Source: Clostridia bacterium (lineage in GTDB: Bacteria > Bacillota > Clostridia > Acetivibrionales > DSM-27016). Taken from it: 64,000 nt of DNA. Every line of letters starts with the position of its first letter. The stretch's first letter is position 1. The stretch covers positions 62,001 through 126,000 of the forward strand of contig JAOAIJ010000041.1 in assembly GCA_026414765.1 (NCBI GenBank). The letters run 5' to 3'. Below are positions 7,736-27,800 of this stretch, one piece after another. A model generated the notes under the pieces. That model ran no database searches. It was not told the origin of the DNA and saw only the letters and a list, made by a program, of their open reading frames with translations. Both the position numbers and the translations under genes were made by a program.

Positions 7736-10700
7736 ATGGAACAGGTATCAATAGATATACCAGCTTATATTGAAGGCATGAAATCTGAATTTAACTCACA
7801 CATGACTCAATTAAATGACCTGCTTTGCAGGTTGCTCAGGGGTCAATTATGCTCTATGGGAATGTTTAGACAAGGGAAAGTATTGGTTAATAAACCGGGT
7901 TCCCGGATAGGGTTAGATAATTTATATGATAAGTGGTTGGAAGCAAGCATCAGTTTCTTAACTGAAAAAAAATATGTCACTTGCGATGGCGAGTCATACA
8001 CCTTACTAAACAGTAAGTCTGTAGATATCGATGCCGTCTGGCAGGAATGGAAGCAGAAAAAAGAGGCGTGGCTGAAAAACTCTGATATGTCAGCCCGGGT
8101 CACACTATTGGAGTCAACACTAAGGGCTTTGCCTGATATACTAACAGGAAAAGTTCCGGCGACAGATATTATTTTTCCGGATTCCTCTATGGCACTGGTG
8201 GAAGGGGTATATAAAAACAATAAAGTTGCAGATTGTTTTAATGAGGTGCTTGCCGATGCCGTAGTTTACTATATTAAGGAACAGTTGAAGCAAAATCCGG
8301 CGGGCAGGATCCGAATTCTGGAAGTGGGTGCCGGTACGGGAGGAACCAGTGCTATGGTTCTCCGTAAAATAAAGCCTTTCCGGGACCAGATCCAGGAATA
8401 TTGCTATACGGATATCTCCAGGGCATTTTTATTGCATGCCGAAAGAGAGTATGGCGAACAAAATCCTTTCCTTAGCTGTAAATTGTTTAACGTAGAAGCT
8501 CCCGTTGCGGGGCAAGGAATAAAAGCAGGTGAATATGACATTGTCATAGCTGCCAATGTTTTGCATGCCACTAAAAATATCCGGCAAACCATACGGAATG
8601 CCAAAGCAACCTTGCGAAAACAAGGGTTGTTGCTTATAAATGAGCTAAGTGACAATTCCCTGTTTGCCCACTTGACCTTTGGGCTTTTGGAGGGATGGTG
8701 GCTGTACGATGATCCGGTATTACGCATTCCTGGAAGCCCGCTGTTGTCTCAAGCAACATGGCAAAGGGTTCTGGAAGGTGAGGGTTTCCAATCTGTCTTC
8801 CATCCAGCATGGAAGATTCACGATCTTGGTCAGCAGATTATTGTTGCTGAGAGTGATGGGGTTGTACGGCAAAAGCAGCAAATAAAACCTGGCATTACAC
8901 CTCTAAAGCAGGCTGCAAAGGATCAGATTTTCAAAGAACAGTCAATGAAACCCAGGCTCCACATAGAGCAGGGCAGCGGTGTAAAAGACAATTTGCTACG
9001 GGACAAAAGTAAGGCCTATTTAGTGAAAATGGTAGCTGAAGTACTAAAAATTCCACGTCAAAAGATTGATTCATCGGAGCCTTTGGAGAGTTATGGGATC
9101 GATTCCATTTTAGTCGTTCAGATAACAAGTGCTCTAAGAAAAAGTTTTGATAATATAAGCAGTACCTTATTATTTGAGTGTCAGACAATTGATGCTCTAT
9201 CAGAGCATTTTGTAAAAACCCAAAGGGATTCGTTGATAAAGCTGTTAGGGCTGGAGGAACAACAGCCTCTTGAAAAGGAAAACCAAATGCAGTCTGTTGT
9301 ACCATCGGTAACCCCTGCAGTAACAGGAAAAAAGCCAAGATTCTTAAAATACTCTCCCTCGTCGGAAACCGTAAAACTGTCACCGGAGCCATTTAAGGAG
9401 CCAATTGCTGTAATTGGGATGAGCGGCCGGTATCCGCTGGCAAATAATTTGAAAGAATTTTGGGGGAATTTAGGTGCGGGAAGGAATTGTATAACCGAAA
9501 TTCCGGAAGATCGGTGGCCACTGGAAGATTTTTATCACCCGGACCCTAAGGAAGCTGTCGCTCAAGGCAAAAGCTACAGTAAATGGGGTGGCTTCATCGA
9601 AGGATTTGCGGAATTTGATCCGCTCTTTTTCAATATTTCGCCTAGAGAGACTTTAAATATGGACCCTCAGGAGCGCCTGTTCCTGGAAGAATGCTGGAAG
9701 GTACTGGAGGATGCGGGATATACAAGAGTACAGCTTAGCAAACAGTATCATAATCGTATAGGAGTTTTTGCGGGAATAACAAAGGCCGATGTCAGCCTGT
9801 ATAGCTCTGAATTATGGAAACAGGGAGAAAAGATTCACCCTCGCTCTTCATTCAGTTCAGTGGCAAACAGGGTTTCATATTTGTTTAATTTCAGAGGCCC
9901 CAGTATGCCAATAGATACAATGTGCTCCTCCTCCCTTACGGCTATTCATGAAGCCTGTGAAAATATCCACCGGGGAGAATGTGATCTGGCAATCGCAGGG
10001 GGTGTCAATTTATATCTTCACCCTTTAAGCTATGTAGAGCTTTGCGCACATCAAATGCTTTCGGAAGACGGACAATGTAAAAGCTTCGGTAGGGGTGGAA
10101 ACGGTTTTGTACCCGGTGAAGGGGTGGGGACTATACTCTTGAAGCCGTTGTCAAAAGCTGTCGCAGACCATGACAATATTTATGCCGTAATCCGGGGTAC
10201 TAAAATAAACCACGGCGGTAAAACAAACGGCTATACTGTACCCAGCCCTACTGCTCAGGCAGAACTCATTAAAGAGGCTATAGGCAAGGCGGACATACAC
10301 TCACGGGCCATCACCTATATAGAAGCTCACGGAACAGGAACAGAGCTTGGTGACCCAATAGAAATAAAAGGGCTTACTCAGGCCTTTGAAAAGGATACGG
10401 CAGATACGGGATTTTGTTCCATTGGGTCAGTAAAATCCAACATTGGCCATTTGGAATCCGCGGCAGGAATAGCGGGTGTAACAAAAATCATACTGCAAAT
10501 GAAAAACGGGCAATTGGCCCCAAGCATTAATTCAAAAGAATTGAATCCAAATATAGATTTCTCTAAAACACCATTCGTAGTCCAGCAAGATCTTGCCCCA
10601 TGGAACAGGCCTTTTATTGAAATAAACGGTGAAGCCGGGGAATATCCAAGAATCGCTGGAATCTCAAGTTTCGGTGCGGGAGGGTCCAATGCACATATTG

Positions 10701-13700
10701 TAATAGAAGAATATATTCCTCAACATATGGAAGAGAGTGGCATAACAGTTTCTGCTCAAAATCCGGCAATTATAGTATTATCGGCAAAGACTGAAGGACA
10801 GCTTCAGGTTCAGGTGCAGCAGCTGCTTACTGTCATGGAGGAACAGAATTTTACTGACAGCAGCCTGGCAAACCTGGCTTATACGCTTCAGGTAGGGCGG
10901 GAGCACATGGAAGTACGTCTGGCGGTTATTGCAATTTCTATAAAAGAACTTAAAGAAAAACTAAATGGGTTTATGGAAGGCCGGAGTGATATAGAAGATT
11001 TGTATCACGGTCAGGTAAAGCCAAATAGAGAAGTGCTGGCTGTTTTTGCAGCTGATGAGGATTTGCAGCAAGTTGTTAATAAATGGCTGGAAAACAGGAA
11101 GTATTTAAAATTACTTGACCTATGGGTAAAAGGTCTTAACTTTGATTGGAACAACCTGTATAAGGATGCCAGGCCTTACCGTATCAGTTTGCCGACTTAC
11201 CCCTTTGCAAAAGATAAATACTGGATACCTGTGGTGAAAACCAGCATAGGTACAAGTGCAGCAAGCCACATAAACATAAACGATATTCATCCGTTAGTAC
11301 ATCAAAATACCTCTAACTTCTCGGAGCAGAGATTCAGCTCTGTTTTTACCGGTGAAGAATTTTTTCTCTCGGATCATGTCGTCAAGGGTCAAAGGGTTTT
11401 GCCCGGTGTAACATATTTAGAAATGGCGCGGGCTGCGATAGAACTGGCAGTAGAAGATTTTACAGACAGTGAGATGGGAATACGGCTGAAGGACGTAGTA
11501 TGGGCCCGTCCTGTTATTGTAGGAAAGCAGCCGCTAAAAGTCAGCATCGGTTTATATCCCGGGAGTAACGGCGAATTCTCTTATGAAATTTATAGCAAAC
11601 CTGAAATACCTGATGCAGAAAAAATAGTAAACAGCCGGGGTATTGCAGTAATTGAAAAGGCTTCCAAAGGACCGGCAGTTGATATCCATAAATTGCGAGA
11701 CGAGTGCAATATCAGCATTCTTTCATCCGGCCAGTGTTACAAAGTCTTTGAAACCAGAGGGATAGAATATGGTCCGTCCCATCGGGGGATTGAAAGACTG
11801 TATCTGGGTATGGAACAGGTAGTGGCTGAACTTGTCTTGCCTTCCCGGGTTTTAGAGACCAGGGAACGATTCGTTTTACATCCCGGCATAATGGACGCTG
11901 CTTTACAAACATGTCTGGGATTGATGGCAGGTGCAGCAGAATTTACAGATAACCTGGAAAACAGTAAGCTCAGACTGCCTTTTGCGCTCCGGGAGCTTGA
12001 AATATTCGGAACAACAGCTTATGCCAAGTGGGCTATTGCCCGCTTTAGTGACGGTAGTGCCTCTACGGACAAAGTTCAAACCTTCGATATTGATATAGCT
12101 GATGAAAATGGGGTAATTTTAGTTAGCTTCAAAAGCCTTTCGTTCAGAACCCTGGAAGTTGAAAAAGGTATTGAAGAAGCAGACGGCAGAAAAGGAATGC
12201 TTGTACTGAAGCCTTGCTGGCAAGAAGCAGCCATGGGTAATGTATTTTCAGATACTTATGAGGAGAGGGTAAAGGAATATACAAGGCATATTGTATTTCT
12301 CGGTGAGATGAAACAGGGTCTGGAGAAAAGTATTGCAGGACAGATGGCAGGATTGCAATGCCATGTTTTACATTCCAATGAACAGGACCTTGATCAACGA
12401 TATAAGAACTATACAACTCAAGTGTTTGGGGAGATACAGAGTATTCTTGGTGGTAAATCGCCAGGTAAAACCCTAATACAGATTGTAGTCCCGGTTCAGA
12501 ATGAAGGGCAGCTCCTTACAGGATTGTCAGGTTTATTGAAAACAGCTTCCTTGGAAGACCCGAAAATTATGGGCCAGCTTATAGAAGTGGATTCAGTTGA
12601 AGATGCGCCAGGAATTGTAACCAAGCTGAAAGAAAGCGGTCTGAGACTTATGGAAAAAAGAATACGGTATCAGGGTGGTAAAAGGATGATTCCTGTCTGG
12701 AGTGAAATCGAAACCTCCTCAGCTGCAATTGAAATGCCCTGGCGTGATAAGGGAGTTTACCTTATTACCGGTGGTGCCGGAGGACTTGGGCAGCTTATGG
12801 CAAAGGAAATAGCGGGTAAAGCAAGAAATGCGAAAATAATAATTACCGGACGGTCTCCGCTAAAGGAGGGCGTGCAAAACAAATTAGAGGAATTACTACG
12901 GTATGGTGACCGGATTCAATACAAACAAGCGGATATTTCTTCAAAAGAAGAGGTTGAAATACTGGTCGGAAGCATCATAAGGGACTTTGGAGGACTTAAT
13001 GGCATAATCCATTGTGCAGGCGTAATCCGCGACAACTTTATTATTAAGAAAACCATGGACGAAATTTCTGAGGTGATGGCACCCAAGGTTTCCGGGCTGT
13101 GGAATCTCGACCAGGCAACCAGGGATATGTCCCTAGATCACTTTATTCTGTTTTCTTCCGGAGCGGCAGACATGGGGAACATCGGTCAGGCAGATTACTC
13201 TGCAGCCAATGCCTTTATGAATGCTTATGCAGGTTACAGGAACAGCCTGATGTCATTGAAAAGGCGTAGTGGGAAAACTTTGTCAATCCTTTGGCCGTTA
13301 TGGAAAGAAGGCGGAATGCGGGTAGATGACCTAACAGAAAAAAATATGGCTAAAAATTTGGGGATTACACCTCTTTCCACAACAAACGGGATTCAGGCTC
13401 TATATAAAGGCTTATCCTCCGGAAATGACTGCATAATGGTGGCGGAGGGAAATCTCAGCCAAATGAGGCAGAAACTATTGTCTTCACTTTCATCACAATC
13501 AATGAAGCCGGAGCCGAAACTCGTCACAAGGCCCAAAACCTCTGCAGAGCTTCCTGATGAAGCAAGTCTAAAAGACAATATAGCCGGTTACTTGAGGGAG
13601 ATGGTTGCCGATACGCTGAAAATCTCTCCCGGAAGTCTAAATAACAATGAAAGCTTTGATAAATACGGATTAGACTCAATTATTGTCGTTGAAATAAATA

Positions 13701-16498
13701 ATAAGCTGGAAAAAGATTTTGGCAATCTATCAAAAACACTATTTTTCGAATATAGTACCATAGATGAATTAGCTGATTATTTTGTGAAAACTCATAAGGA
13801 AGTTTTGTTAAGGCTTTTTACAGCAGAAGAAACTACTGTACCTGGAGATAGTTCAGGACTGATACCTTCGTCAAGCGGGAAGCTCCCACAAGCTGTCCCC
13901 AAGCCAAAACGAGTGGAATATCTTGCGAAGCAGGCCAATGATTACAATTGCGTAAAAGCAAATTATTCCGGCCAGTCGGGCAGCAATACACTGCAGGTAC
14001 CGCAAGAATCCAGTATTACTGACTTCCTTATAAGACAAATTGAAAATGATAACTTAACTCTTGATGATATTATTGCATTACCATGCTGCGATATTATCAC
14101 TACAAAAGATAAATCCATTAAAAAAGATGATTGCAGGAAAACCGGTGAACCTGAACCCTGTGGTGATTCATCGGATTATGTGTTAATTCATGAGAAGGAG
14201 TTGCAGAATAAACCTGTGCTCACCAGCCTGGTTGAAGAAATCGACAGGGACAATCCGCCGGTGGGATATGAACGTTTACTCTACCAGCACTTTTTCATAT
14301 CCGCTAAGCAAAAGAAATACTTAAGGCTGATGGTTGATGAGCCCGATCAACTTATTGTTCCCTTTATGCCAATAGATCCGGTCAGTTATAAGGAGTTGCG
14401 GGTCTTTTGCAAAAAGAATAATAAAAAACTGCTTGTAGTAGATTCTTATCATGATTGGATCAGCTCAGAGCAAACAAGGCTTATTCCGTTAGGAGTATGG
14501 CAGGATATAGATATAAATCAGTTTACCCTGGCCGGAAACAAAATGAGAAAATTACGGTATCTGGTAGAAAAATTCAGAAACTCCGGCGATGTAAAAATTA
14601 TCGAGTTTACTCCCGGGTTAAAGCTATCTCTGAATGAGATGCGCGGCTTAATGATGAAGTGGTGTGAAGGAAAGAAAAACATCATAAAGCATACTTTTGT
14701 CTGTATGCAGGAACTGTTGAAAAGGACTCTGCCTTCCGGATACAGGGCATTCTTAACCTATCACAATGATAAATTATGTACGGTTATAGTAATCGAACAT
14801 GGCACCAATGGAATGTACGTTATGGATCAGGAGTTCTATGATCCTAAGAACGCTCCACTGGGTCATATGGAGTATTCTATTACTGAGATTATCGGATTTT
14901 TGAAAAAAGAAAAGGCGAATATTTTTTCCCTTGGACTGACATGGTATCCCTTTGCCTTTGAAGACTATCCACAGAAGGACCCGGAAGGATGGGCATGGCT
15001 AAAAGAGCAATACAGTAAACAAACTCTGTTAAGCAGAATATTTCACCAAGGTGAAACCAACTATCAATTCAAAAAGAAGTTTGGGATATCGGGAGAGCCT
15101 GTTTTGGCGTATTTGCCCAAAGAAGAGCCTTTTTCATTATTATTCAAATACTGGCCGATTTTCTATCAAAATTCCCTTACTGCCGATCAACTCAGTGAGC
15201 AAATCAGCCGTATACCGTTGTCAGACCTGGAAAGCGGATATACAGGCAGGGAAAGCAGTCAGACAAAGTATGACTTGACTGACAGGCAGGGTCGCCAATT
15301 ACTGATATCAAGCACGACAAAACTGGATCAAATTGACTACCATGACAATCCACTGGATTTAGCCACGGACTCATGGTATATGGTCCGATCCGATGCCGTA
15401 AAGGAACGCACTGTCCATTTGAAGGCTAAAAGTCCAGTAGGGGGTTCCGAAATAATCAAAACCATATTTCCTTTTAAGCACATAATCTTAACAGACAGAG
15501 GACGGAGTGCAGAAGAGCTTTTTTACAAGGTATTCCAGAAGACCGGGAAAAAAATACTGAGCGCCATACCCTGGGCTTCCACCCTTATGCATCAACTAAA
15601 TAACGGGTTTGAAGTGATTGAGCTGCCCCATCCTTCTGTACAGGAACCTGATTCAGCTTATTTATTTAAAGGGGAGCTGGATATAGAGGCATTAATGGAA
15701 CAATTACGGAAAGATAGCCGAAATATTGCTATGGTTGGCCTGGAAGTACTTAGTAATGCCAGCGGAGGGAATCCGGTCAGCTTGTCGCACATCGGCGAGT
15801 TGAAACAGATCCTTAATCAATTTAAAATCCCGATGGTTCTGGATGCTTCGAGGATAGTCAGGAATGCGTTCCTGATAAAGCAATATGAAGAGAATTGCCG
15901 GCAAAGCAACATTTGGGATATTGTAAGACAGACTTCAAAGCAAGCTGACTATATTGTAACCAGCTTGACCAAAGATTTTGCAGTACCGGTTGGCGGTCTC
16001 ATTGCAACCAATGATGACCGGCTGGCTGAAGATATTAAGAGGGCTCAAGCGAGTCAAAGCCTTTTGATTACTCCTGAGGAGGAGCGCATGATTATCAACG
16101 CATTATCGGATCAGGAAAAGATAACGGGGCTTATTGAGGAGCAGCTTACATTTGCCAGGAGCCTGCAAGATATGCTGATTCAGGCAAAAGCACCGATTTT
16201 GCAGCCGGCTTGTGGCCATGCAATAGTAATAAATGTTTCACAGCTGGTTTATGGAGAAAGTAATACTCAGAAAAAAGAAACATTCCTTAAAGAACTGTTT
16301 ATCGAAACGGGGATTCGAGGAGGTATCCACCAGGTTGGCAAACAGAAGAATACCCTTCTGGATCAATGTATTCGTCTGGCTCTGCCATTGGGTTTAGCGA
16401 GTGAAAATAGAAGGATTATATTTGATAAGCTAAAGCATTTTTTCGCGGCCAGGCAAGTGCCTGAATCAGATAAGGAGGTAGCTGTTTGTCATGTCTGA
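7736..16498 (+). CDS. trans-AT polyketide synthase: MT-ACP / KS-DH-KR-ACP-DUF2156-tryptophanase-like (rest of m2, m3)
   Basis: 2920 residues. Domains: C-methyltransferase 36-378 with SAM motif EVGAGTGGT near 194; ACP 419-502 (Ser457, GIDSI); KS 555-992 (Cys730, TMCSSS; EAHGTGT; SNIGH); DH 1184-1472 (His1214, Asp1387); KR 1485-1919 (TGGAGGLG, Tyr1821); ACP 1944-2022 (Ser1981, GLDSI); a polar Cys-containing linker to about 2150; DUF2156/GNAT-like domain 2156-2479; tryptophanase-like PLP domain 2509-2905. The N-terminal MT-ACP completes module m2, whose KS-DH-KR ends the previous protein, so m2 should yield an alpha-methylated unit. m3 would deliver an enoyl-ACP to the two extra domains, described separately. 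The stop overlaps the next gene by 8 nt. The two C-terminal domains are very unusual in a PKS and are the main novelty of the window. Confidence 0.96.
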   Translation: MEQVSIDIPAYIEGMKSEFNSHMTQLNDLLCRLLRGQLCSMGMFRQGKVLVNKPGSRIGLDNLYDKWLEASISFLTEKKYVTCDGESYTLLNSKSVDIDAVWQEWKQKKEAWLKNSDMSARVTLLESTLRALPDILTGKVPATDIIFPDSSMALVEGVYKNNKVADCFNEVLADAVVYYIKEQLKQNPAGRIRILEVGAGTGGTSAMVLRKIKPFRDQIQEYCYTDISRAFLLHAEREYGEQNPFLSCKLFNVEAPVAGQGIKAGEYDIVIAANVLHATKNIRQTIRNAKATLRKQGLLLINELSDNSLFAHLTFGLLEGWWLYDDPVLRIPGSPLLSQATWQRVLEGEGFQSVFHPAWKIHDLGQQIIVAESDGVVRQKQQIKPGITPLKQAAKDQIFKEQSMKPRLHIEQGSGVKDNLLRDKSKAYLVKMVAEVLKIPRQKIDSSEPLESYGIDSILVVQITSALRKSFDNISSTLLFECQTIDALSEHFVKTQRDSLIKLLGLEEQQPLEKENQMQSVVPSVTPAVTGKKPRFLKYSPSSETVKLSPEPFKEPIAVIGMSGRYPLANNLKEFWGNLGAGRNCITEIPEDRWPLEDFYHPDPKEAVAQGKSYSKWGGFIEGFAEFDPLFFNISPRETLNMDPQERLFLEECWKVLEDAGYTRVQLSKQYHNRIGVFAGITKADVSLYSSELWKQGEKIHPRSSFSSVANRVSYLFNFRGPSMPIDTMCSSSLTAIHEACENIHRGECDLAIAGGVNLYLHPLSYVELCAHQMLSEDGQCKSFGRGGNGFVPGEGVGTILLKPLSKAVADHDNIYAVIRGTKINHGGKTNGYTVPSPTAQAELIKEAIGKADIHSRAITYIEAHGTGTELGDPIEIKGLTQAFEKDTADTGFCSIGSVKSNIGHLESAAGIAGVTKIILQMKNGQLAPSINSKELNPNIDFSKTPFVVQQDLAPWNRPFIEINGEAGEYPRIAGISSFGAGGSNAHIVIEEYIPQHMEESGITVSAQNPAIIVLSAKTEGQLQVQVQQLLTVMEEQNFTDSSLANLAYTLQVGREHMEVRLAVIAISIKELKEKLNGFMEGRSDIEDLYHGQVKPNREVLAVFAADEDLQQVVNKWLENRKYLKLLDLWVKGLNFDWNNLYKDARPYRISLPTYPFAKDKYWIPVVKTSIGTSAASHININDIHPLVHQNTSNFSEQRFSSVFTGEEFFLSDHVVKGQRVLPGVTYLEMARAAIELAVEDFTDSEMGIRLKDVVWARPVIVGKQPLKVSIGLYPGSNGEFSYEIYSKPEIPDAEKIVNSRGIAVIEKASKGPAVDIHKLRDECNISILSSGQCYKVFETRGIEYGPSHRGIERLYLGMEQVVAELVLPSRVLETRERFVLHPGIMDAALQTCLGLMAGAAEFTDNLENSKLRLPFALRELEIFGTTAYAKWAIARFSDGSASTDKVQTFDIDIADENGVILVSFKSLSFRTLEVEKGIEEADGRKGMLVLKPCWQEAAMGNVFSDTYEERVKEYTRHIVFLGEMKQGLEKSIAGQMAGLQCHVLHSNEQDLDQRYKNYTTQVFGEIQSILGGKSPGKTLIQIVVPVQNEGQLLTGLSGLLKTASLEDPKIMGQLIEVDSVEDAPGIVTKLKESGLRLMEKRIRYQGGKRMIPVWSEIETSSAAIEMPWRDKGVYLITGGAGGLGQLMAKEIAGKARNAKIIITGRSPLKEGVQNKLEELLRYGDRIQYKQADISSKEEVEILVGSIIRDFGGLNGIIHCAGVIRDNFIIKKTMDEISEVMAPKVSGLWNLDQATRDMSLDHFILFSSGAADMGNIGQADYSAANAFMNAYAGYRNSLMSLKRRSGKTLSILWPLWKEGGMRVDDLTEKNMAKNLGITPLSTTNGIQALYKGLSSGNDCIMVAEGNLSQMRQKLLSSLSSQSMKPEPKLVTRPKTSAELPDEASLKDNIAGYLREMVADTLKISPGSLNNNESFDKYGLDSIIVVEINNKLEKDFGNLSKTLFFEYSTIDELADYFVKTHKEVLLRLFTAEETTVPGDSSGLIPSSSGKLPQAVPKPKRVEYLAKQANDYNCVKANYSGQSGSNTLQVPQESSITDFLIRQIENDNLTLDDIIALPCCDIITTKDKSIKKDDCRKTGEPEPCGDSSDYVLIHEKELQNKPVLTSLVEEIDRDNPPVGYERLLYQHFFISAKQKKYLRLMVDEPDQLIVPFMPIDPVSYKELRVFCKKNNKKLLVVDSYHDWISSEQTRLIPLGVWQDIDINQFTLAGNKMRKLRYLVEKFRNSGDVKIIEFTPGLKLSLNEMRGLMMKWCEGKKNIIKHTFVCMQELLKRTLPSGYRAFLTYHNDKLCTVIVIEHGTNGMYVMDQEFYDPKNAPLGHMEYSITEIIGFLKKEKANIFSLGLTWYPFAFEDYPQKDPEGWAWLKEQYSKQTLLSRIFHQGETNYQFKKKFGISGEPVLAYLPKEEPFSLLFKYWPIFYQNSLTADQLSEQISRIPLSDLESGYTGRESSQTKYDLTDRQGRQLLISSTTKLDQIDYHDNPLDLATDSWYMVRSDAVKERTVHLKAKSPVGGSEIIKTIFPFKHIILTDRGRSAEELFYKVFQKTGKKILSAIPWASTLMHQLNNGFEVIELPHPSVQEPDSAYLFKGELDIEALMEQLRKDSRNIAMVGLEVLSNASGGNPVSLSHIGELKQILNQFKIPMVLDASRIVRNAFLIKQYEENCRQSNIWDIVRQTSKQADYIVTSLTKDFAVPVGGLIATNDDRLAEDIKRAQASQSLLITPEEERMIINALSDQEKITGLIEEQLTFARSLQDMLIQAKAPILQPACGHAIVINVSQLVYGESNTQKKETFLKELFIETGIRGGIHQVGKQKNTLLDQCIRLALPLGLASENRRIIFDKLKHFFAARQVPESDKEVAVCHV
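14200..15170 (+). other. DUF2156 / lysylphosphatidylglycerol-synthetase C-terminal (GNAT-like) domain embedded in PKS module m3
   Basis: Residues about 2156-2479 of the second PKS protein. Several landmarks match, from memory, the C-terminal catalytic half of MprF-type aminoacyl-phosphatidylglycerol synthases: a QFTLAGNKMRKLR segment (family: TLxGKxxxxLR), a later MKWCEGKKN helix (family: WLxGRK), an IFSLGLTWYPFA strand (family: FNLGMAPLS), and a closing YQFKKKFGISGEPVLAYLPK segment (family: LRKYKEKYxPxWEPRYLAY). No membrane segment is present. Known members transfer aminoacyl groups from aminoacyl-tRNA; other DUF2156 proteins have no assigned role. Placement after an ACP and before a PLP lyase suggests that it docks, adds or transfers an amino acid or sulfur nucleophile onto the ACP-bound chain. 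That role is inference. Confidence 0.78.
15260..16450 (+). other. Tryptophanase / tyrosine phenol-lyase-like PLP domain (beta-eliminating lyase family) at the end of m3
   Basis: Residues about 2509-2905 (about 400 residues, close to full family length). Sites that line up with tryptophanase/TPL: phosphate-binding DRGRSAE (Gly2589-Arg2590; family QGRAAE); SNASGGNPVSL (Asn2674; family NxAGGQPVS); DASRIVRNAFLIK (Asp2703, pairing with the PLP pyridine nitrogen; family DSARFAENAYFIK); SLTKDFAVPVGG (Lys2746, Schiff-base lysine; family SAKKDAxVxxGG); CGHAIVI; and IRLALP (Arg2880, the family's alpha-carboxylate-binding arginine). The PLP and amino-acid binding set looks intact. The GDEAYAG tyrosine loop of TPL is not evident, so leaving-group chemistry may differ. 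Expected reaction type: beta-elimination from a cysteine-like (C-S) or other beta-substituted amino acid. The closest functional precedent I know is the SH domain of leinamycin-family PKSs. Confidence 0.85.
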
Positions 16499-18806
16499 TA
16501 AGAATTTAAAAGAACTGGTAAACCAGCTTTCTGAAGACCAGAGGCAATTATTGTATGATAGAGTTGCCAGGGTGGACAATAGTAGAGAGCCACAAAATAT
16601 AAATATGCCTCGACAGTACGACATTGCAATAATCGGCTTAAGCGGCCGATATCCCCAAGCCGGAAATCATCTTGAATTTTGGCATAAGCTTCAGCAGGGC
16701 TTTAATTTTATAGAAGAAGTTCCCCGGAATCGTTGGGATCACAACGAATACTATGAGCCGGATTCCAGGGATGACTCCCGAAATAAGACCCGCTGCAAAT
16801 ATGGAGCTTTTATAAATGAGCATGATAAATTTGATGCTGAATTTTTTAATATACATTCAAGGGAAGCGGCACTAATGGACCCGCAAGAGCGCCTGGCTCT
16901 GGAAACTACATGGTCCTGTATTGAAGATGCAGGTTATGAACCCTCCATGCTTAGCAGGGAAACGGGGGTTTTTACAGGGCTGACCTATAGCGAGTTTCAG
17001 AAGTTGATTCCCATGACAACTCATTCCTATGTATTAGGTAGCAGAATAGCTTATTTTTTTGATTTTAAAGCAATGTCAGTTACAACAGATGCCGGCTGCT
17101 GTTCTTCTCTGAATGCAATTCATTTAGCTTGTCAAAGCTTAATCAGAGGGGAATGCCGGACGGCAATAGTGGTTGGGGCAAATCTGATATTGCATCCGGA
17201 ACATTATACAACAGCGTCACAGATGCTAAGCTCAAAACAGATTCCCTTATCCAGCCCTTTTGGTATCGATGATGGCTGGATTCCTGCCGAGGGGATTGTT
17301 GCCGTTTTGCTGAAACCTCTAAAAAAAGCTGTAGCAGACAAAGATAACATTTATGGAATTATTAAATCCAGTCATATTTTACAGGATGGGAAGACCTCCT
17401 GGTTTACAGCATTCAACCCTAAACAGCAGGCTAAACTTATTCAGGAAAATTTCATCAAATCAGGTATAGACCCGCAAACCATCGGCTATGTGGAAGCGGC
17501 GGCTAACGGCTCGGATTTGGGCGATGCTATCGAAATAGAGGGTTTGAATGCTGCATTTAAAAACTTTACCGATAAAACCCATTATTGCCCCATTGGTTCA
17601 GTTAAGTCCAATACCGGCCATGGAGAAGCAGTATCGACACTTCTGCAGTTGACAAAGGTTTTACTGCAGTTTAAGTCAAAAACCCTTCTTCCTCTGGTTA
17701 ACATTACAGAAATCAATCCTAACATAAACATGGAGCAGTCACCCTTTTATTTGCTGAAAGAGTCTCAAAGATGGGAGCCTCCGGTAGTAAGACTTAACGA
17801 AGAGCAGTTTTCGCTGCCCAGGCGGGCTACAATATCATCTTTTGGTGCAGGTGGCAATATCGGGCATCTTATCCTTGAAGAATATTCTACCAAGGAATCA
17901 GAAAAGCAAACCTTGGATTATTATATTATTCCAGTGTCTGCCAGATCTGTGGATTTACTCAGACTGAACCTGGAAAATTACCTTGATTTTTTTGAAGAGT
18001 ATCTTGTCATTGATGCAGAGTGGCAATCGAACTATACTCTGTTGAACATGATGTTTACTCTCTGTGCCGGAAGAGTGTCATTTCAGGAGCGCGTAGTTTT
18101 TGTCGCCGACAGGTTGGAAAGTTTGGTAACTCAGATCCGCCAGTTTTTAGGCGGAAATCATAACTCCAATATTATTACAGAAGGCAGTGGGAGTACCGCT
18201 GCTCCGGCAGCTGATAATATAGATGCAGCAAATTACCTTAAGAATCATTCACTTTATGATTTAGCCCGGGTTTGGGTTTGTGGCGGAAAGATTTCCTGGG
18301 ACGGGTTTTTTAAACAATATGACGTAAAGAGGGTTTCATTACCTGTATCGGCTTTTGAAAAAAAACACTTTCCTGTTCCTTCAATTCCGAAACCGGTTAA
18401 GTATACTTCTAGTCCCAAAACCGGTGTGAATCCCGGGCCGGTTGTAGAGAAACTGCAAAATAGGGAAAATGGGACTGATTTAAGACAAATTGTCAGGGAA
18501 ATATTCGCCAAGGCTTTAAGTATTCCTGTTCACCAGGTTAATTTGGCATCACAACTTGATGAATATGGTTTTGACTCGATAATGGTTGCAAAAGTTGCAG
18601 ATGGCTTGGGAAAGTATTACGGTACTGTGCCTAAAACACTATTTTTCGAATGCCAGACTATTAATGATGTCATTAATCACCTCGGGCAAAGATATACTGC
18701 CGAATCTCTTAAGACTGTTCCTGAGGATGATTCAATAGAGTCACTGACCAAAGCAATACTGTCCGATGGCATTTCCGCGGAAATACTTATTAATAAATTA
18801 CCATAG
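16491..18806 (+). CDS. Stand-alone non-elongating ketosynthase with ACP (KS0-ACP, m4)
   Basis: 771 residues. A helical N-terminal docking-like segment (1-35) precedes a KS (43-465), a short remnant of the post-KS linker, and an ACP (about 663-740; Ser696 in GFDSI). The KS keeps its acylation cysteine (Cys203, in AGCCSS) and the last active-site histidine (His377, SNTGH). The EAHGTGT motif has become EAAANGS, so the first catalytic histidine is Ala337. In this family that loss marks KS0 domains, which transfer chains without decarboxylative elongation. The ATG at 16491 overlaps the end of the previous gene by 8 nt and is preceded by GGAGG at 16474-16478 (12-nt spacing). Its place directly after the DUF2156-PLP pair suggests it moves the modified intermediate to gene 4. 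Other substitutions near the active sites (CCSS, TSWFTAF) mark a divergent KS. Confidence 0.94.
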   Translation: MSDKNLKELVNQLSEDQRQLLYDRVARVDNSREPQNINMPRQYDIAIIGLSGRYPQAGNHLEFWHKLQQGFNFIEEVPRNRWDHNEYYEPDSRDDSRNKTRCKYGAFINEHDKFDAEFFNIHSREAALMDPQERLALETTWSCIEDAGYEPSMLSRETGVFTGLTYSEFQKLIPMTTHSYVLGSRIAYFFDFKAMSVTTDAGCCSSLNAIHLACQSLIRGECRTAIVVGANLILHPEHYTTASQMLSSKQIPLSSPFGIDDGWIPAEGIVAVLLKPLKKAVADKDNIYGIIKSSHILQDGKTSWFTAFNPKQQAKLIQENFIKSGIDPQTIGYVEAAANGSDLGDAIEIEGLNAAFKNFTDKTHYCPIGSVKSNTGHGEAVSTLLQLTKVLLQFKSKTLLPLVNITEINPNINMEQSPFYLLKESQRWEPPVVRLNEEQFSLPRRATISSFGAGGNIGHLILEEYSTKESEKQTLDYYIIPVSARSVDLLRLNLENYLDFFEEYLVIDAEWQSNYTLLNMMFTLCAGRVSFQERVVFVADRLESLVTQIRQFLGGNHNSNIITEGSGSTAAPAADNIDAANYLKNHSLYDLARVWVCGGKISWDGFFKQYDVKRVSLPVSAFEKKHFPVPSIPKPVKYTSSPKTGVNPGPVVEKLQNRENGTDLRQIVREIFAKALSIPVHQVNLASQLDEYGFDSIMVAKVADGLGKYYGTVPKTLFFECQTINDVINHLGQRYTAESLKTVPEDDSIESLTKAILSDGISAEILINKLP

Positions 18807-18809
18807 ATG

Positions 18810-18817
18810 AGGGTGAT
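18810..18817 (+). promoter_or_regulatory. Ribosome binding site AGGGTGAT that favours a TTG start at 18822
   Basis: AGGGTGAT is a near-perfect match to the anti-Shine-Dalgarno complement and ends 4 nt before the TTG at 18822. The in-frame ATG at 18807, directly after the preceding TAG, has no recognisable site upstream and would itself contain this one. Starting at TTG also gives an N-terminus (KEAIISSILKKIKTG) of the length usual for trans-AT PKS proteins. Confidence 0.65.
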
Positions 18818-18821
18818 AAAG

Positions 18822-21800
18822 TTGAAGGAAGCTATTATAAGTTCTATATTGAAAAAAATAAAAACGGGATCCCTGTCAAAAGAAGTCGGGGTAGACCTAT
18901 GCTATGAGATCAAAAATATGAATGAAGGTACAGGAGCACAGATAAATCGTCCCGCTGATATTGCAATTATTGGTTTGGCGGGCTGTTATCCTCAAGCCAG
19001 AAATATCTATGATTTCTGGAAAAACTTAACCGGCGGCAAAGACTGCATCTCAGAAATACCATCCAACCGCTGGCGGTGGCAGGATTATTTCCTTCCGGAC
19101 AGGCAATCTGCAGCCGCACTGGGGAAAAGCTACAGTAAATGGGGTGGATTCATAGAGGATGTAGATAAATTCGATCCGTTATTTTTTAATGTTGCTCCCA
19201 GTGAAGCTGAACTGATGGACCCGCAGGAGCGTTTATTTCTGAAGGTGGTTTGGGAAGTATTGGAGGATGCCGGGTATAACAAATCCACATTAAGTACTCA
19301 AAAGGACAATGGAGAGAATAACAAAATAGGTGTTTTTGTTGGTGCTACATGGCAGGAATACCAGCTTTATTCCAGCAGTGTCGATGACTGTTACAAAACT
19401 GTTGTATCCACAAACGCCTGCAGTATTGCCAACAGAGTCTCCTACTTCTTTGATTTCAAAGGTTACAGCCTCACTGTCGATACAGCATGCTCTTCGTCTC
19501 TTATGGCAATCCATCTGGCTTGTGACAGTTTGCTACAGGGTACAAACAGCATAGCGATTGCCGGGGGCGTAAATCTTACTCTTCATCCCAACAAATATTT
19601 ACTGCTGTCAAAGCATCAGTTTGCTTCCAGTGATGGAAGGTGTGTAAGCTTTGGCGAGGGAGGAAACGGCTATGTCCCAGGTGAGGGTGTAGGGGCCGTG
19701 CTTCTCAAGCCCCTGTCCCGGGCTATTACAGATGGAGATCATATTTACGGTGTCATCAAAGCATCTGCTGCCAACCATGGAGGGAAAACCAACGGGTTTT
19801 CAGTTCCCAACCCCAATGCCCAGGCGGAAGTAATAACTGAGGCATTGGAGAAGGCCGGTATAGATCCCAGAACTATCAGCTATATCGAGGCTCACGGGAC
19901 AGGTACTTCCCTGGGTGATCCCATTGAAATTGCCGGTTTGAATAAAGCTTTCCGGGAGTATACCCGGGATAAGGGTTTTTGCTCCATAGGATCGGTGAAA
20001 TCCAATATCGGGCACTGTGAAAGCGCAGCGGGGATTGCTGGCCTGACGAAAGTACTGCTGCAGCTCAAATACAGAAAATTGGTCCCTTCCTTGCATTCCA
20101 GGGTTCTTAACCCTGAGATAGACTTTGATGATTCACCCTTTTTCGTTCAGCAGGAGCTTGCCGAATGGAAAAGGCCGAAAATAGAAATAAACGGACAAAC
20201 AAAAGAATATCCAAAACGGGCAGGCCTTTCATCCTTCGGGGCAGGAGGAGTAAATGTCCATCTGGTGATAGAAGAATATATTCCTGAGCACCGTGAATCT
20301 ACTCATAAAGTCCAAAACCCCGAACATCCGGCGATTATCCTGCTGTCGGCACGGAACCAGGAAGGACTCGTAGCACAGGTAAAACAATTATTAGACGCTA
20401 TTCTTGATAAAAGAATTGTTGAAGATGAGTTAAAGCAAATGGCCTATACACTTCAGGTAGGACGTGAGGCACTTGGAGAACGGCTGGCTGTAGTAGTAAG
20501 CTCCTTGGGAGAACTGGCTGAAAAGTTGCAGGCATTTTTGAAAGGTCAAAAAAATCTTGCCGGTCTATATCATGGACAGGCTCAAAATCGCCAGGAAGCC
20601 TTGTTTCCCTTAACGACAGATGCAGATTCAACGGTTTCTAAATTGATTTATGATAAAAGATATAATGAACTCTTGGACTTATGGATTAAAGGACAGCCTG
20701 TTGACTGGAATTTGCTCTATGATGAAAGCAAACCGCGACGAATGAGTCTACCGACTTATCCGTTTGCGGGTAAATCTTATTGGGTGCCGAAGATTGAACC
20801 GAACTCCTCCGCAGCTGTGATAAAATCCCCGGACACTTTCAGCAGCAGGGTATCTCCTGAAACTTCCGGTGAGTCGATGGTCGGAACGGTCATGCTGGTT
20901 CCCGTTTGGGATGCTTTTAATGTACAGAGGGTACAAGAGTATCCATCCTCTGCTGAGCAGATTTTAATTATAGGAGGGGCCGACGATAAAAGAAGCAGTA
21001 TCCGGAAGAAGTATCCAAATGCCCATATGCCGGATATTCAGCCCGTTGATAATATTGATGCGATAGCAGAAAAACTGAAAACTTATGAATACATAGATCA
21101 TATTATATGGATTGCCCCTGATAACTCCTTGACGTCCCTGGTGGAGGATGGGCTGATCGAAGGGCAGAATCAAGGTGTCCTTCAGATTTTCCGAATGATT
21201 AAAGCTTTGCTTCAGTTGGGTTATGGAACCAGGAACCTGGGGTGGACTATAATAACTGTTCAGACTCAAACTGTCAGAAAGCATGAAAAAGCAAACCCCA
21301 CTCATGCTTCACTTCATGGGCTGATCGGTTCTATGGCCAAGGAATACCGCAACTGGAAGGTACGGTTGGTTGATATGGAGGAAGATTCGTTTGCTGATAC
21401 CTCCAGGCTTACAACAGAAGTTTTTTCTTTACCTCCGGATCCTCAAGGGAATATTTTAGCATACAGAGACGGAGAGTGGTACCGGCAGCAGCTGGTTCCT
21501 TTTAATCGTCCTTCATTGCCGGAACCGCAACTATACCGGACCGGCGGAGTTTATGTAGTTATTGGCGGCGCAGGAGGCATTGGGGAAGTGTGGAGTGAAT
21601 ACATGATCCGCAGCTTCAAAGCTCAAATCATCTGGATTGGCAGACGCCAAACAAGCGAAGCAATTCAGGCAAAATTGGACAGGCTTGCAACTATGGGGCC
21701 TGTGCCCGAATACATTTCAGCGGATGCAACTGATGAAAAAATGTTGCGTAAAGCTTATGAAAAAATTAAGCAGAAATATACAAATATTAATGGAGTCATT

Positions 21801-24800
21801 CATTCAGCCATTGTGCTGCTCGACCAAAGTCTGGCCAATATGGATGAGGAGCGTTTCAAAACGGGGCTTTCTGCAAAGATCGATGTGAGTGTACGTATGG
21901 CACAGGTGTTTCAGAAAGAACCCCTGGATTTTGTAATGTTTTTCTCTTCCATGATTGCTTTTTCAAAATTTCCCGGACAGAGCAACTATGCTTCCGGCTG
22001 CACCTTTAAAGACGCTTATGCCCAGCAGCTTTCAAGGGAATGGCCTTGTAAAGTAAAGGTTATGGACTGGGGATACTGGGGCAGTGTCGGTATTGTTGCG
22101 TCGAAGGATTATCAGGACCGGATGGCATTGGCTGGTATTGGCTCTATTGAACCCCCGGAAGCGATGGAGGCTCTGGAGACACTACTTGCCGGGCCGATGG
22201 ATCAGCTTGCTCTGATGAAAACTACTAAACCTCTGGAAATGGAAGAAATAAATCCTCAGGAAGTGGTCGCTGTCTACTCTGAAAACCTGCATTCAGGTAT
22301 TCAAAATATAGAGAGCTATTTGCCTGAGCAGTTTTTACGGATTAATCACTTGAAATCGGAAGTAAGCCTTCATCTTAAGGAGATGGAGGGGCTTCTCTGC
22401 AAACTGCTTTTGGGTCAATTGCAGTCCATTGGAATGTTTGCACCAGATAATTCAATAATAGGTGATTATAAGAACAAAACTGGTCTATCCGGGCTGTATG
22501 ACCGATGGATGGAAGAGAGTATTGCTGCTTTGGAGCGGAATAAATATCTCCAGCATAAGGAACGCTTATTTGCGGTAACCAATGTAATTCCATCAGATAT
22601 GAATGATTTATGGGAAGAGTGGAATCAGAAAAAAAGTATATGGATGGAAAATTCAAACATGAAGTCATTGGTGGTTTTAGTTGATACAACACTTAGAGCA
22701 TTACCGGAAATACTCACCGGAAAAACCCTCGCGACAGAGATAATGTTTCCCAATTCCTCTATGGAACTGATAGAAGGAGTTTACAAAAACAATATGCTTG
22801 CTGATTACTTCAATGAAGTACTGGCAGACTCTGTGGTTGCATATATACACGAACGCCTTAAGCAGGATACATCCGCTAAAGTCAGAATTTTAGAGATTGG
22901 AGCAGGTACAGGCGGAAGCAGCAAAATGGTGTTTCAAAAACTAAAGCCTTATCAGCAACATATTCAGGAATATTGCTATACAGACATATCAAAAGCTTTT
23001 TTGCTTTTTGCAGAAAAAGAATACGGACCTGAGAATCCCTATCTGACCTACCGGATTTTTAATGCTGAAGCTCCGGTTGCCGGGCAAGGTGTCAATGCCG
23101 GGGGATACGATATTGCAATTGCTACCAATGTATTGCATGCAACCAAAAATATACGTACAACTTTGCGTAATGCAAAAGCTGCTTTACAGAAAAACGGGTT
23201 GATAATGCTAAATGAGATGTCACATAATACTATGTTTTTTCACCTGACATTCGGGCTGCTGGAAGGATGGTGGATGTATGAAGATTCAGCCCTCCGCATT
23301 CCGGGCTGTCCCGGATTGTATCCGGAGACCTGGAAAAGTGTTTTGGAAACAGAAGGGTTTAATTCCGTACTCTTCCCGGTCAGAGAAGCCCATGAATTCG
23401 GGCAGCAGATCATAATAGCCGAAAGTGATGGTGTTATAAGACAGCAGCAAAAAATAAAAACGGATGTGAGTACAGCTAAGGAGAAAAAGAGCCTGCAAGG
23501 AAACCAGTCAAGCTCACCCGGCAATGCTTCAAAAAAAGCTGGTCCTGAAACGAGCCGGCCGGTGTCGCCTAATAAAGGTAATGCCGCCAACGATCTAGTT
23601 CTGGAGGATTTTGTTAAGGAATTGATAAAAGAAAAGATTTCGGAATCTTTAAAGATTGATATTGACGAAATCGGCGTGGACGAACCATTTGCGGATTATG
23701 GCCTGGATTCTATAACCGGTGTCAATTTAGTATTCATCATTAATCAGGCGCTGGAAATCGATTTGAAGGTTACGACCCTGTTTGACTATAGCTCTGTAAA
23801 TCAGCTGGCAGCATATATTTTGTCCGGGAACAAAGAAGCAATTGCAGGGATCTACGGACTTAATACCAACCAGACTGAAGTGGATGAAGAACAGGATACC
23901 GATAGTCAGGAAGAATCTCTTGAGATTCTAGGTATCAAGGCAGAGACAGGAAGTGGAAGCCAACAAATATCAAAAGAGCCAATAGCAATTATCGGAATGA
24001 GTGGGCGGTATGCCAAAGCCAAATCGTTGGAGGAATTATGGGATTGCCTTGAAAACGGTACTGACCTGGTAGGGGAAATTACCAGGTGGGAGCTTGGGAA
24101 ATATCATCCGGAAGGACAGTCATACTGTAATCATGGCGGATTACTGGATGATATCGATAAATTTGATCCGCTCTTTTTCAATATTTCAGGGATTGAAGCT
24201 ACTTATATGGATCCGCAGCAAAGATTTTTTCTGGAAGAATCATGGAAAGCTCTGGAAGATGCAGGCTATGCAGGGTCAGAATTAGGTGGAAAGCAGTGCG
24301 GCGTTTATGTGGGGTACAACGGTGGAGATTACCAGCAGTTGTTTGCTGATAATCCTAATCCGCCACCTCAGGCTATGTGGGGTAACTCAGGCAACATAGT
24401 TCCTGCGCGTATCGCATATTACCTGGATCTGCACGGACCTACCGTAGCAGTCGATACAGCTTGTTCCAGTTCATTAGTTGCCATTCATCTTGCCTGTCAG
24501 GGGCTGTGGACTAACGAAACAGAGATGGCTCTAGCCGGAGGTGTATTTATTCTAAGTACTCCAGGTTTCTACATATATGCTAACCGGGCTTCAATGCTAT
24601 CCCCGTCAGGAAGATGCTATACCTTTGATGACAGGGCTGACGGGTTTGTTCCCGGCGAAGGCGTTGGTGCCGTTGTACTGAAGAGGCTTAAAGATGCCAT
24701 TGCTGATGGCGATCATATTTACGGAGTGATCCGGGGTTCTGGAATCAACCAGGATGGAAAGACCAATGGAATTACAGCACCCAGTGCCAATTCACAGGAA

Positions 24801-27800
24801 CGTTTGGAGCGCTATGTGTACGATACCTTTGGCATAAACCCGGCAGGAATCCAGATGGTTGAAGCTCACGGGACAGGTACCAAGTTAGGAGATCCAATTG
24901 AATTTGATGCCCTGACTCGTGCATTCCGGAACTATACAGATAAAAAACAATACTGTGCCCTTGGATCAATCAAGACAAATATCGGGCATTCATCAGCTGC
25001 GGCTGGGGTTGGGGGACTAATAAAAATTCTGCTGTCTCTTTACTACAAAAAAATTCCGCCCTCAATTAATTTTCACTCAGGGAACTCTAATATCAATTTT
25101 AGCGATAGCCCTTTTTATGTTAATACAACTCTCAGAGACTGGGAGGTTGAAAGCGAAGGAAGTCCGAATCAAACAAAGCGCTGTGCTGTAATCAGCTCTT
25201 TCGGATATAGCGGAACTAATGCTCATTTGGCTATAGAAGAGGCTCCGGAAGTAAAACGGACACATCCGGAAAAACCAGGTTATTTGATTGCATTATCTGC
25301 TAATTCCTTAAAACAACTGCAGCAGCAGGCGGAGAAATTAGCCGGTTATTGCAGTCAGCGGCCTTCCGTTGATTGCGGGAATATGAGCTTTACACTGCTG
25401 CAGGGTAGGAAACACATGAACCACCGTTTGGCTTGTGTTGTGCGTAACACGCAGGAACTTGTGAAATTCCTGAAAAAATGGCTGGAAAAGGGCAAAGTAT
25501 CTCAAGTCTATTCTTCAGAATTTCACGAGAAGGAGCATAGGGAGCAACTTACCCTGAAGCAATATGGCAATCAATTGCTTCAAAAATGCCGGGAAACAAG
25601 TAACACTAATGAATATTTGGAACAGTTGTCTACAGTTGCCGAGTTATATGCTCAAGGATATAATCTGGAATTCAGGCAGTTATTTGCCGAAAATCAGTAT
25701 TCGAGAATTTCTTTACCTACATATCCGTTTGCGGTTGAGAGCTATTGGGTGTCTGCAAGTGATAACAGGTCTGCCCGGGTTATGGAAGAAACCCGGAAGG
25801 CAGCAGCTATCCATCCTTTGCTGCACCAAAACACGTCTGATCTTTCAGAACAGCGTTTCAGCTCAACCTTTAACGGTGAGGAGTTTTTCCTGGCAAACCA
25901 TAGGGTTAACGGTCAAAGGATACTGCCGGGGGTTGCTTATCTGGAGATGGCCCGGGCTGCTGTAAGTCAGGCTGCCGGGACTTCAGCAGGCAACAGAATT
26001 TCAGTCAGGCTGAAAAATGTAGTTTGGGCACGGCCTGTCATAGTAGGTGAGCAGCCGGCAAATGTACATATCGGATTATTTCCTGATGATAACGGTGACA
26101 TCAGTTATGAGATTTATAGCCAGCAGGGAGGAGACAACACTGAGCCTTTAGTACACAGTCAGGGTACTGCGGTTATTACTCCCAATACAGAAGAGGCAAG
26201 ACTTGATCTGAATGCCATAAAAGCTTGCTGCAATCTGAATACTGTACCTGCCAGCCAATGCTACAAGGTATTTGAAGCTATGGGCTTTGATTATGGTCCC
26301 GGGCACCAGGGTATTGAACAGCTTTATATGGGACAGGGACAGTTATTGGCAAAGTTGTCTCTGCCGTCCTCAGTGGCCGGGACCAGTGAATTATTTGTCC
26401 TGCATCCCAGTCTGATGGATTCAGCTTTACAGGCAACACTGGGCTTGATGATGGATACGGGGGATCTGTTGTCCGGAAATATTGCCTTTACCAAACCGTA
26501 TTTGCCCTTTGCACTGCAGGAGGTTGAAATATTCGGAGGTAGCACGGCCAGTATGTGGGCCCTGATTAAATCCAGCGAAAGCAGTTCAGCAGGAGATAAG
26601 GTGCGGAAGCTGGATATTGATTTATGCGATGATGAGGGTAGAGTTTGTGTACGGATGAAAGGATTTTCAACCCGTGTGCTTGAGGGAGGAGCCGGTTCAG
26701 CGGAGACGTCCGCAGGTACCCTGATGATGAGTCCTTGCTGGAAAGTACAACCCATAAGCGGAGAAGTACATGCTCCTGACTATGAAAAACATATCGTGAT
26801 GATTTGCAAAGCCTTGGCTATGGCTCAGGATAATATCAAAGCCGGCATGACAGGAGTACATTGTATTCTCTTAGAAGCTGAATCGGAGGATATGGATGTG
26901 CAGTTTCAGACATATGCTGCCCGGGTATTTGATGAAATTAAAACAATTCTGAAAAGTAAGCCGGTTGGGCAGATACTGGTTCAAATTGTCGTTTCTGCAG
27001 AAGATAAACAGCAGATTTTTTCAGGCCTGAACGGGTTGTTGAAAACTGCCCATTTAGAGAATCCAAAGCTGATAGGACAGCTGATTGAAATAAACCCGGA
27101 TGAGGCTTCAGAAAAAATTATCGGAATATTGTGGGAAAACAGCCGTATTCCCACCGAAAGCCACATTCGCTATCAGGATAGTGTGCGCTATGTCGCCGGC
27201 TGGAGTGAGCTGGCAAATAATAAGGAAATAAGGAAGCTCCCGTGGAAAGAGCAGGGAGTCTATTTGATTACCGGAGGCGCTGGCGGCCTTGGATTAATTT
27301 TTGCTGAAGAGATGGTCAGACAGATAAAGGATCTGACCGTAATTCTGGTTGGACGATCTGAGCTTGACAGGAATAAGCAGGCTAAGCTTAAGGAGCTTGA
27401 GATCAAGGGGGCCAGGGTTGTTTACAGGGCGGTTGATGTAGCCGATATGCAGGCCGTAGTCGGATTGATTCAGGGAATCAAGGCTGAATTCGGAAATCTG
27501 AACGGAATTATTCACAGCGCCGGCGTAATACGTGATAATTTTATTATCAGAAAATCCAGGGAGGAACTTAGGGAAGTAATGAATCCCAAAGTTGCAGGAC
27601 TTGTGAATCTGGATCAGGCAAGCCAGGATATAGATCTTGACTTTTTCATAATATTTTCTGCCGGGGCAGGAATTATGGGTAACCCTGGACAAGCTGATTA
27701 TGCTTCCGCAAATGCATTTATGGATAACTATGCCAGATACCGCAGTACCCTGACTGGGCTAAAACTGCGGCAAGGGCAAACCTTATCCATTAATTGGCCC

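Follow-up and report, generated by a model that had tools for sequence, protein, structure and literature searches.

Leinamycin is an antitumour antibiotic, and domains related to the DUF-SH pair described here are thought to supply its sulfur. To our knowledge, the leinamycin family alone has so far yielded characterised domains for installing an intact hydropersulfide. In the published model, the DUF domain carries out the conjugate addition of thiocysteine and the SH domain, a pyridoxal phosphate (PLP) enzyme, cleaves the C-S bond to leave -SSH (PMC8479088; PMC7618002), and the SH step has been demonstrated with purified leinamycin-type domains (PMC8479088). The leinamycin type is terminal, in the order ketosynthase (KS)-acyl carrier protein (ACP)-ACP-DUF-SH-thioesterase (TE) (PMC7618002). 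DUF-SH pairs outside the leinamycin family have already been published, as three families in Meng 2021 (PMC8479088), and in their modules the ACP is single and a TE is lacking (PMC7618002). Here we analysed a window of 64,000 nucleotides (the whole stretch of DNA under study, positions 62,001 to 126,000 of contig JAOAIJ010000041.1 of a Clostridia bacterium) that encodes a DUF-SH pair inside a modular polyketide synthase (PKS). The pair probably introduces sulfur midway along a trans-acyltransferase (AT) polyketide chain, as a bimodule with the KS-ACP that follows it.

The pair forms the end of a single open reading frame (ORF; 7736-16498, + strand, 2920 amino acids, P0001), for which Pfam and phmmer gave the domain order methyltransferase (MT)-ACP-KS-dehydratase (DH)-ketoreductase (KR)-ACP-DUF-SH. 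The next ORF (16491-18806), which overlaps this frame by 8 bases, encodes KS-ACP (P0002). The initial annotation, made from the sequence alone, had placed two non-PKS domains behind the ACP of module 3 (m3); both gave Pfam matches in that one frame, and its coordinates were right within a few residues. On the tail (14150-16498) the matches are LPG_synthase_C (PF09924, E 3.3e-11, 43.3 bits, above the curated cut-off of 27.5) and Beta_elim_lyase (PF01212, E 2.6e-25, 89.8 bits, cut-off 27). The features of the region, in which KS0 stands for the KS behind the pair, are the following.

8291..8650, + strand: MT core, split module before m3, P0001 residues 186-305 (Pfam Methyltransf_12, phmmer)
9011..9220, + strand: ACP, same split module, residues 426-495 (Pfam, phmmer)
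9392..10735, + strand: m3 KS, residues 553-1000, catalytic C-H-H (Pfam, triad)
11276..12175, + strand: m3 DH, residues 1181-1480, active motifs (Pfam, motifs)
12731..13345, + strand: m3 KR, residues 1666-1870, active motifs (Pfam, motifs)
13556..13795, + strand: m3 ACP, residues 1941-2020, GLDS (Pfam, motif)
14174..15193, + strand: DUF domain, double-GNAT fold, LPG_synthase_C/DUF2156, residues 2147-2486 (Pfam, AlphaFold2, fold search)
15347..16456, + strand: SH domain, PLP beta-eliminating lyase (C-S lyase by homology), residues 2538-2907 (Pfam, PDB searches)
16620..17900, + strand: KS0 in ORF 16491-18806, Cys and last His kept, first His replaced by Ala (AANGS) (triad, trees)
18498..18683, + strand: ACP of the KS0 module, GFDS (Pfam, motif)
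18957..20297, + strand: KS that opens ORF 18807-38147, in the next extending module (phmmer, trees)

Judged by sequence similarity, both window domains have homologs in the leinamycin-type DUF-SH pair. A tblastn search of plasmids with the DUF returned four records, all from Streptomyces or Kitasatospora (E 4e-17 to 2e-16), with matches covering query residues 102-254 of 276 (55% of the query). In each of the three records examined an SH domain lies behind the DUF, and the adjoining genes are annotated as LnmK-family acyltransferase/decarboxylase, phosphopantetheine-binding protein and HMG-CoA synthase. The window pair is 23-28% identical to these leinamycin-type pairs in both domains. With the leinamycin-family proteins LnmJ, GnmT and WsmR it has in common the DUF-SH order, the fusion to a trans-AT PKS and a conserved PLP site, the comparison being drawn with the three leinamycin-type plasmid clusters and not with LnmJ, GnmT and WsmR themselves. 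Of the three actinobacterial DUFs, the two that were scanned both match LPG_synthase_C (67 bits, E 1.9e-18, and 60 bits), thus the leinamycin-type DUF is itself of this fold (DUF2156). The initial annotation had treated a DUF2156-like domain and a DUF-SH domain as separate ideas, a distinction that falls away, and the homology that it suspected to DUF2156, to tyrosine phenol-lyase/tryptophanase and to leinamycin-type DUF-SH was recovered by Pfam, PDB searches, tblastn and alignments.

The window pair therefore has the attributes of a DUF-SH: DUF homology, SH homology with the PLP Lys, and fusion to an AT-less type I PKS. Neither the 25 Pfam matches listed for P0001 nor the nine of P0002 include an AT, and no enoylreductase is among the matches listed for module 3 of P0001. 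Upstream on the contig there are a discrete AT gene (L016:5266-7167, Pfam) and a gene that matches FabD-insert and nitronate monooxygenase, taken for a PfaD-type reductase, and because of these two genes we assign the assembly line to the trans-AT kind. The terminal KS-ACP-ACP-DUF-SH-TE module was not found here. In contrast to the leinamycin pair, the window pair is internal, with KS-DH-KR and a single ACP before the DUF and KS0-ACP after the SH.

The PLP site named in the initial annotation (Lys2746, Asp2703, Asn2674, the GR site and Arg2880) lies where it had been placed. Lys2746, Asp2703, Asn2674, Arg2706, Arg2861, Arg2880 and Gly2589 are invariant in all nine aligned DUF-SH sequences, and Arg2590 of the Gly2589-Arg2590 site is kept in only seven of the nine. 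Seven residues of the DUF are likewise invariant (D2364, E2366, Y2368, F2445, K2446, K2448 and F2449, 9/9), and its FKxKF motif aligns with the same motif in MprF synthase domains. Tyrosine phenol-lyase and tryptophanase are homologs of the window SH and share its PLP Lys, Asp, Asn and two Arg. The SH is nevertheless not a plain member of either family, since it scores far below the NCBIfam equivalog cut-offs (129.6 vs 720.7 and 96.5 vs 825.8 bits, respectively), and the region of Tyr71 of tyrosine phenol-lyase is opposite no conserved residue in the profile alignment (hand count).

The strongest oddity of the locus, overlooked by the initial annotation, is the KS0-ACP next to the pair. A search of genome contigs yielded three loci from 133 pattern matches, in a Verrucomicrobia metagenome-assembled genome (MAG), a SAR324 MAG and Paenibacillus sp. 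MMS18-CY102 (L002, L003 and L004). They have the same domain order and are 47-57% identical to the window pair, so chance or an artefact was rejected. In 4/4 genomes the pair follows KS-DH-KR-ACP and precedes KS-ACP, and the KS behind it carries the triad C-A-H instead of C-H-H (window motif VEAAANGS). The active Cys is kept and the catalytic His of HGTGT is lost, so by its triad this KS is predicted to be non-elongating. In SAR324 and Verrucomicrobia the DUF-SH makes up the N-terminal part of the KS0-ACP protein, and in the window and Paenibacillus it ends the preceding protein. A gene of the metallo-beta-lactamase fold lies between SH and KS0 in Paenibacillus (L004 12599-13288).

In a tree of 56 KSs, the four KS0s form one clade (FastTree 1.0; ultrafast bootstrap 100; stem 0.61) with no other KS inside. 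The KSs that come after KS0-ACP in the window, Paenibacillus and Verrucomicrobia also form one clade (FastTree 0.995; ultrafast bootstrap 100); SAR324 has no colinear KS after KS0-ACP within 7 kb of sequence. The KSs upstream of the pair form no clade in this tree. Clades of trans-AT KSs follow the structure of the incoming chain, and the shared clade of downstream KSs thus fits a shared modification. We read DUF-SH-KS0-ACP, with its product-accepting KS, as a cassette that may have moved between assembly lines. By sequence, the four pairs make up a divergent DUF-SH clade, defined from four genomes and a shallow alignment. Dehydrating bimodules and other KS0-ACP stations of trans-AT PKSs, which pair a non-extending KS and an ACP with a tailoring activity, resemble this arrangement; dehydrating bimodules use a DH, whereas the tailoring unit here would be a C-S lyase pair by homology. 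We did not find the KS0 cassette in the literature searched, whose coverage stops short of the supplements of Meng 2021 that hold its architectures.

A second internal type was detected in the family of the Paenibacillus genome, where the DUF profile at E 1e-20 matched 3/394 genomes, the known one and two others (G499 and G688; L055 and L056). These two encode KS-ACP-DUF-SH-KS-KR-ACP, one of them with a DH-like stretch between KS and ACP (by eye). The pairs are internal and in the DUF-SH order, like the window pair, but without KS0: the KSs on both sides are C-H-H (the next KS in 2/2), and the KS after the DUF-SH lies outside the downstream-KS clade. They are 35-37% identical to the leinamycin-type sequences and 27-30% to the window clade. 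DUF-SH is therefore confined neither to actinomycetes nor to the ends of assembly lines, and the KS0 cassette appears to mark one deep DUF-SH clade. The initial annotation had stressed a mid-line pair outside the actinomycetes; the internal position stands, and its exceptional character is reduced by these two genomes and by the published families (Meng 2021; PMC7618002).

At the same threshold, the DUF profile found only the own genome in the phylum (1/398) and in the order (1/58). With the whole pair as query, 22/60 relatives matched, beyond the own genome with the PLP part only or weakly. The 132 pattern matches in viral contigs included no relative, and a plasmid search with P0002 returned 160 records at E 1e-60, the best below 60% identity. 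Leinamycin clusters claimed in Paenibacillus from KS identity (mSystems 2025, PMC12282132) were not counted as evidence, because the section consulted names no DUF or SH among the Paenibacillus domains.

For the preferred reading, sulfur insertion by the DUF-SH-KS0-ACP bimodule, we propose four steps. The m3 motifs are intact (DH HVVKGQRVLP and HPGIMDAALQ, KR S..Y..N, ACP GLDS), as expected from the active-looking DH and enoyl-making module of the initial annotation, and because of the DH and KR motifs module 3 (KS-DH-KR-ACP) would make an alpha,beta-unsaturated thioester. By motif, its KR carries the B-type Asp. The double-GNAT DUF would then add cysteine or thiocysteine to C3 by conjugate addition, and the conserved Lys of F-K-x-K-F may stabilise the enolate. 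In the third step the PLP domain would bind the S-conjugate via Lys2746, Asp2703 and Arg2880, and beta-elimination would free pyruvate and ammonia and leave -SH or, by analogy with leinamycin-type SH kinetics, -SSH. Finally, KS0 would hand the chain on unextended and the next KS would extend the sulfur-bearing chain. We infer all of the chemical steps, the order of steps 2 to 4, the ACP that carries the chain and the choice between -SSH and -SH. That DUF-SH and KS0-ACP share one protein in two genomes slightly favours insertion on the ACP of the KS0 module over the m3 ACP. The genome has ten Cys_Met_Meta_PP matches, and the five strong ones could be a thiocysteine source. Of the sulfur-insertion hypothesis in the initial annotation, the homology, the intact PLP site and the enoyl module thus hold up, and the chemistry stays at the level of a proposal.

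Several observations weigh against this reading. The published papers themselves give the role of the DUF in conjugate addition as a proposal (PMC8479088; PMC7618002). With only 23-28% identity to the leinamycin-type pair, the window substrate may differ. A 7-row SH profile ranks PDB entry 9cen (308 bits) above tyrosine phenol-lyase (220 bits), but three of its rows are leinamycin-type and 9cen is identified by its deposited name, 'Polyketide Synthase Protein', alone; the window SH by itself scores higher with tyrosine phenol-lyase (119.7 bits) than with 9cen (107.6 bits). The C-A-H triad occurs once outside the clade, in the second KS of the first SAR324 PKS protein, SAR_0 (SAR_0_KS2; 1/52 other KSs), thus the triad alone is not specific. 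The Paenibacillus DH reads HVIRNQRVLP, with Asn for the motif Gly. The didomain model is poor (pLDDT 67, pTM 0.46), so no geometry supports a hand-over between DUF and SH. No sulfur-tailoring gene was recognised by Pfam among ten flanking ORFs, one of which had no match at all.

The alternative that survives best, although we consider it rather unlikely, is that the pair uses cysteine instead of thiocysteine. The product would then be a simple thiol, which a ring (thiolane or thiolactone) might trap immediately. Leinamycin-type SH domains also accept S-cysteine conjugates (PMC8479088), and the window clade is far from these SH domains; against this, the three SH domains assayed favour thiocysteine 50-106 fold (PMC8479088).

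A further alternative arises from the fold of the DUF, which was modelled by AlphaFold2 from an alignment of four rows (pLDDT 84, pTM 0.82). The ten best rows in the fold comparison are all MprF-type synthase domains, with L-PGS (4v36) on top (Z 23.6, root-mean-square deviation (rmsd) 3.7, 296 aligned). The aminoacyl-tRNA-dependent Sbb17 (9wqw; Z 16.0, rmsd 4.0, 259 aligned), FemX (4ii9; Z 15.1, rmsd 4.8, 276 aligned) and ATE1 (8tzv; Z 12.9, rmsd 3.8, 183 aligned) rank below 2hqy, a protein of unknown function (Z 18.1, rmsd 3.5, 262 aligned), and CoA-dependent double GNATs match lower (MshD 2c27, Z 12.0, rmsd 5.0, 247 aligned). The DUF could accordingly take a cysteine unit, possibly persulfide-charged, from Cys-tRNA before the SH cleaves, a reading that we regard as very unlikely. 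F-K is kept in 9/9 DUF-SH sequences, the reactive residue of FemX is given as Lys305 (PMC12945691), which may coincide with the DUF Lys, and over 80% of the cysteine that E. coli CysRS loaded onto tRNA in vitro was the persulfide or a longer form (PMC5660078). The window DUF is also basic (pI 8.4). Against this reading, the other 6/7 DUFs are acidic (pI 4.9-6.0). The fold itself shows no function, given the rank of 2hqy above Sbb17 and FemX and the matches to CoA-dependent enzymes. The window DUF shares fold and FKxKF with the MprF/aminoacyl-phosphatidylglycerol synthase domain, but it is fused to a PKS, with no flippase part in the frame among the Pfam matches listed. Where two MprF-type chains read D-L-M-R, the window has D-Q-E-F and the actinobacterial rows have D-L-E-F, and the Arg of this aminoacyl-phosphatidylglycerol synthase motif is Phe in eight of the nine DUF-SH rows, including the window, and Val in one. 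The invariant carboxylate Arg of the SH also wants a free alpha-carboxylate, so an aminoacyl ester would need cutting first. Aminoacyl-tRNA-dependent transfer by analogy to MprF had been offered in the initial annotation; it has gained a fitting fold and no direct support. Its most specific form, a PKS-embedded DUF that draws persulfidated cysteine from Cys-tRNA into the chain at a dedicated KS0-ACP station, would be highly improbable.

Two other assignments were rejected. Eight readable loci of the housekeeping DUF2156 type (16 tried; 22 matches in 20 genomes) lack D..FY and FKxKF by eye, and for an anti-phage role PADLOC gave no row for the DUF and one weak row for the SH (E 0.0081).

It is barely plausible that the pair has no activity or serves for docking or pacing and that KS0-ACP serves other tailoring, e.g. 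late dehydration: KS0 modules are common in trans-AT lines, 8/56 KSs lack C-H-H with only four of them behind DUF-SH, and the window has a further C-N-H, but the catalytic residues are kept in 9/9 sequences across distant genomes and, of the 56 KSs, just the four that follow DUF-SH fall into the KS0 clade.

The C-N-H triad belongs to the last KS of another window ORF (38144-46060) and points to another likely KS0 in the same line. The window has a GC content of 41-47%. A NusG-family gene ahead of the PKS operon (L016 4390-4923, Pfam) is perhaps a dedicated antiterminator for the very long transcript. HMG-synthase-like and enoyl-CoA-hydratase-like ORFs (L019 5053-6330 and 6321-7094, by eye; window 62650-63399, Pfam) make a beta-branching cassette likely. 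Just past the window, the cluster tail encodes a radical SAM protein (L019 3358-4980, Pfam) that also matches a B12-binding domain and may C-methylate the polyketide. Shortly past the cluster tail an ORF is cut by the end of the contig (133688), and downstream tailoring genes may therefore be missing.

If the proposed function is true, DUF-SH-KS0-ACP would be a second, apparently portable form of sulfur insertion, placed in mid-chain, and sulfur could enter internal polyketide positions, with the cassette present in distant phyla. The fold of the DUF narrows the question of the donor to free thiocysteine or an activated cysteine. The clusters that carry the cassette, which are unstudied, are thereby flagged as sources of sulfur-bearing compounds.

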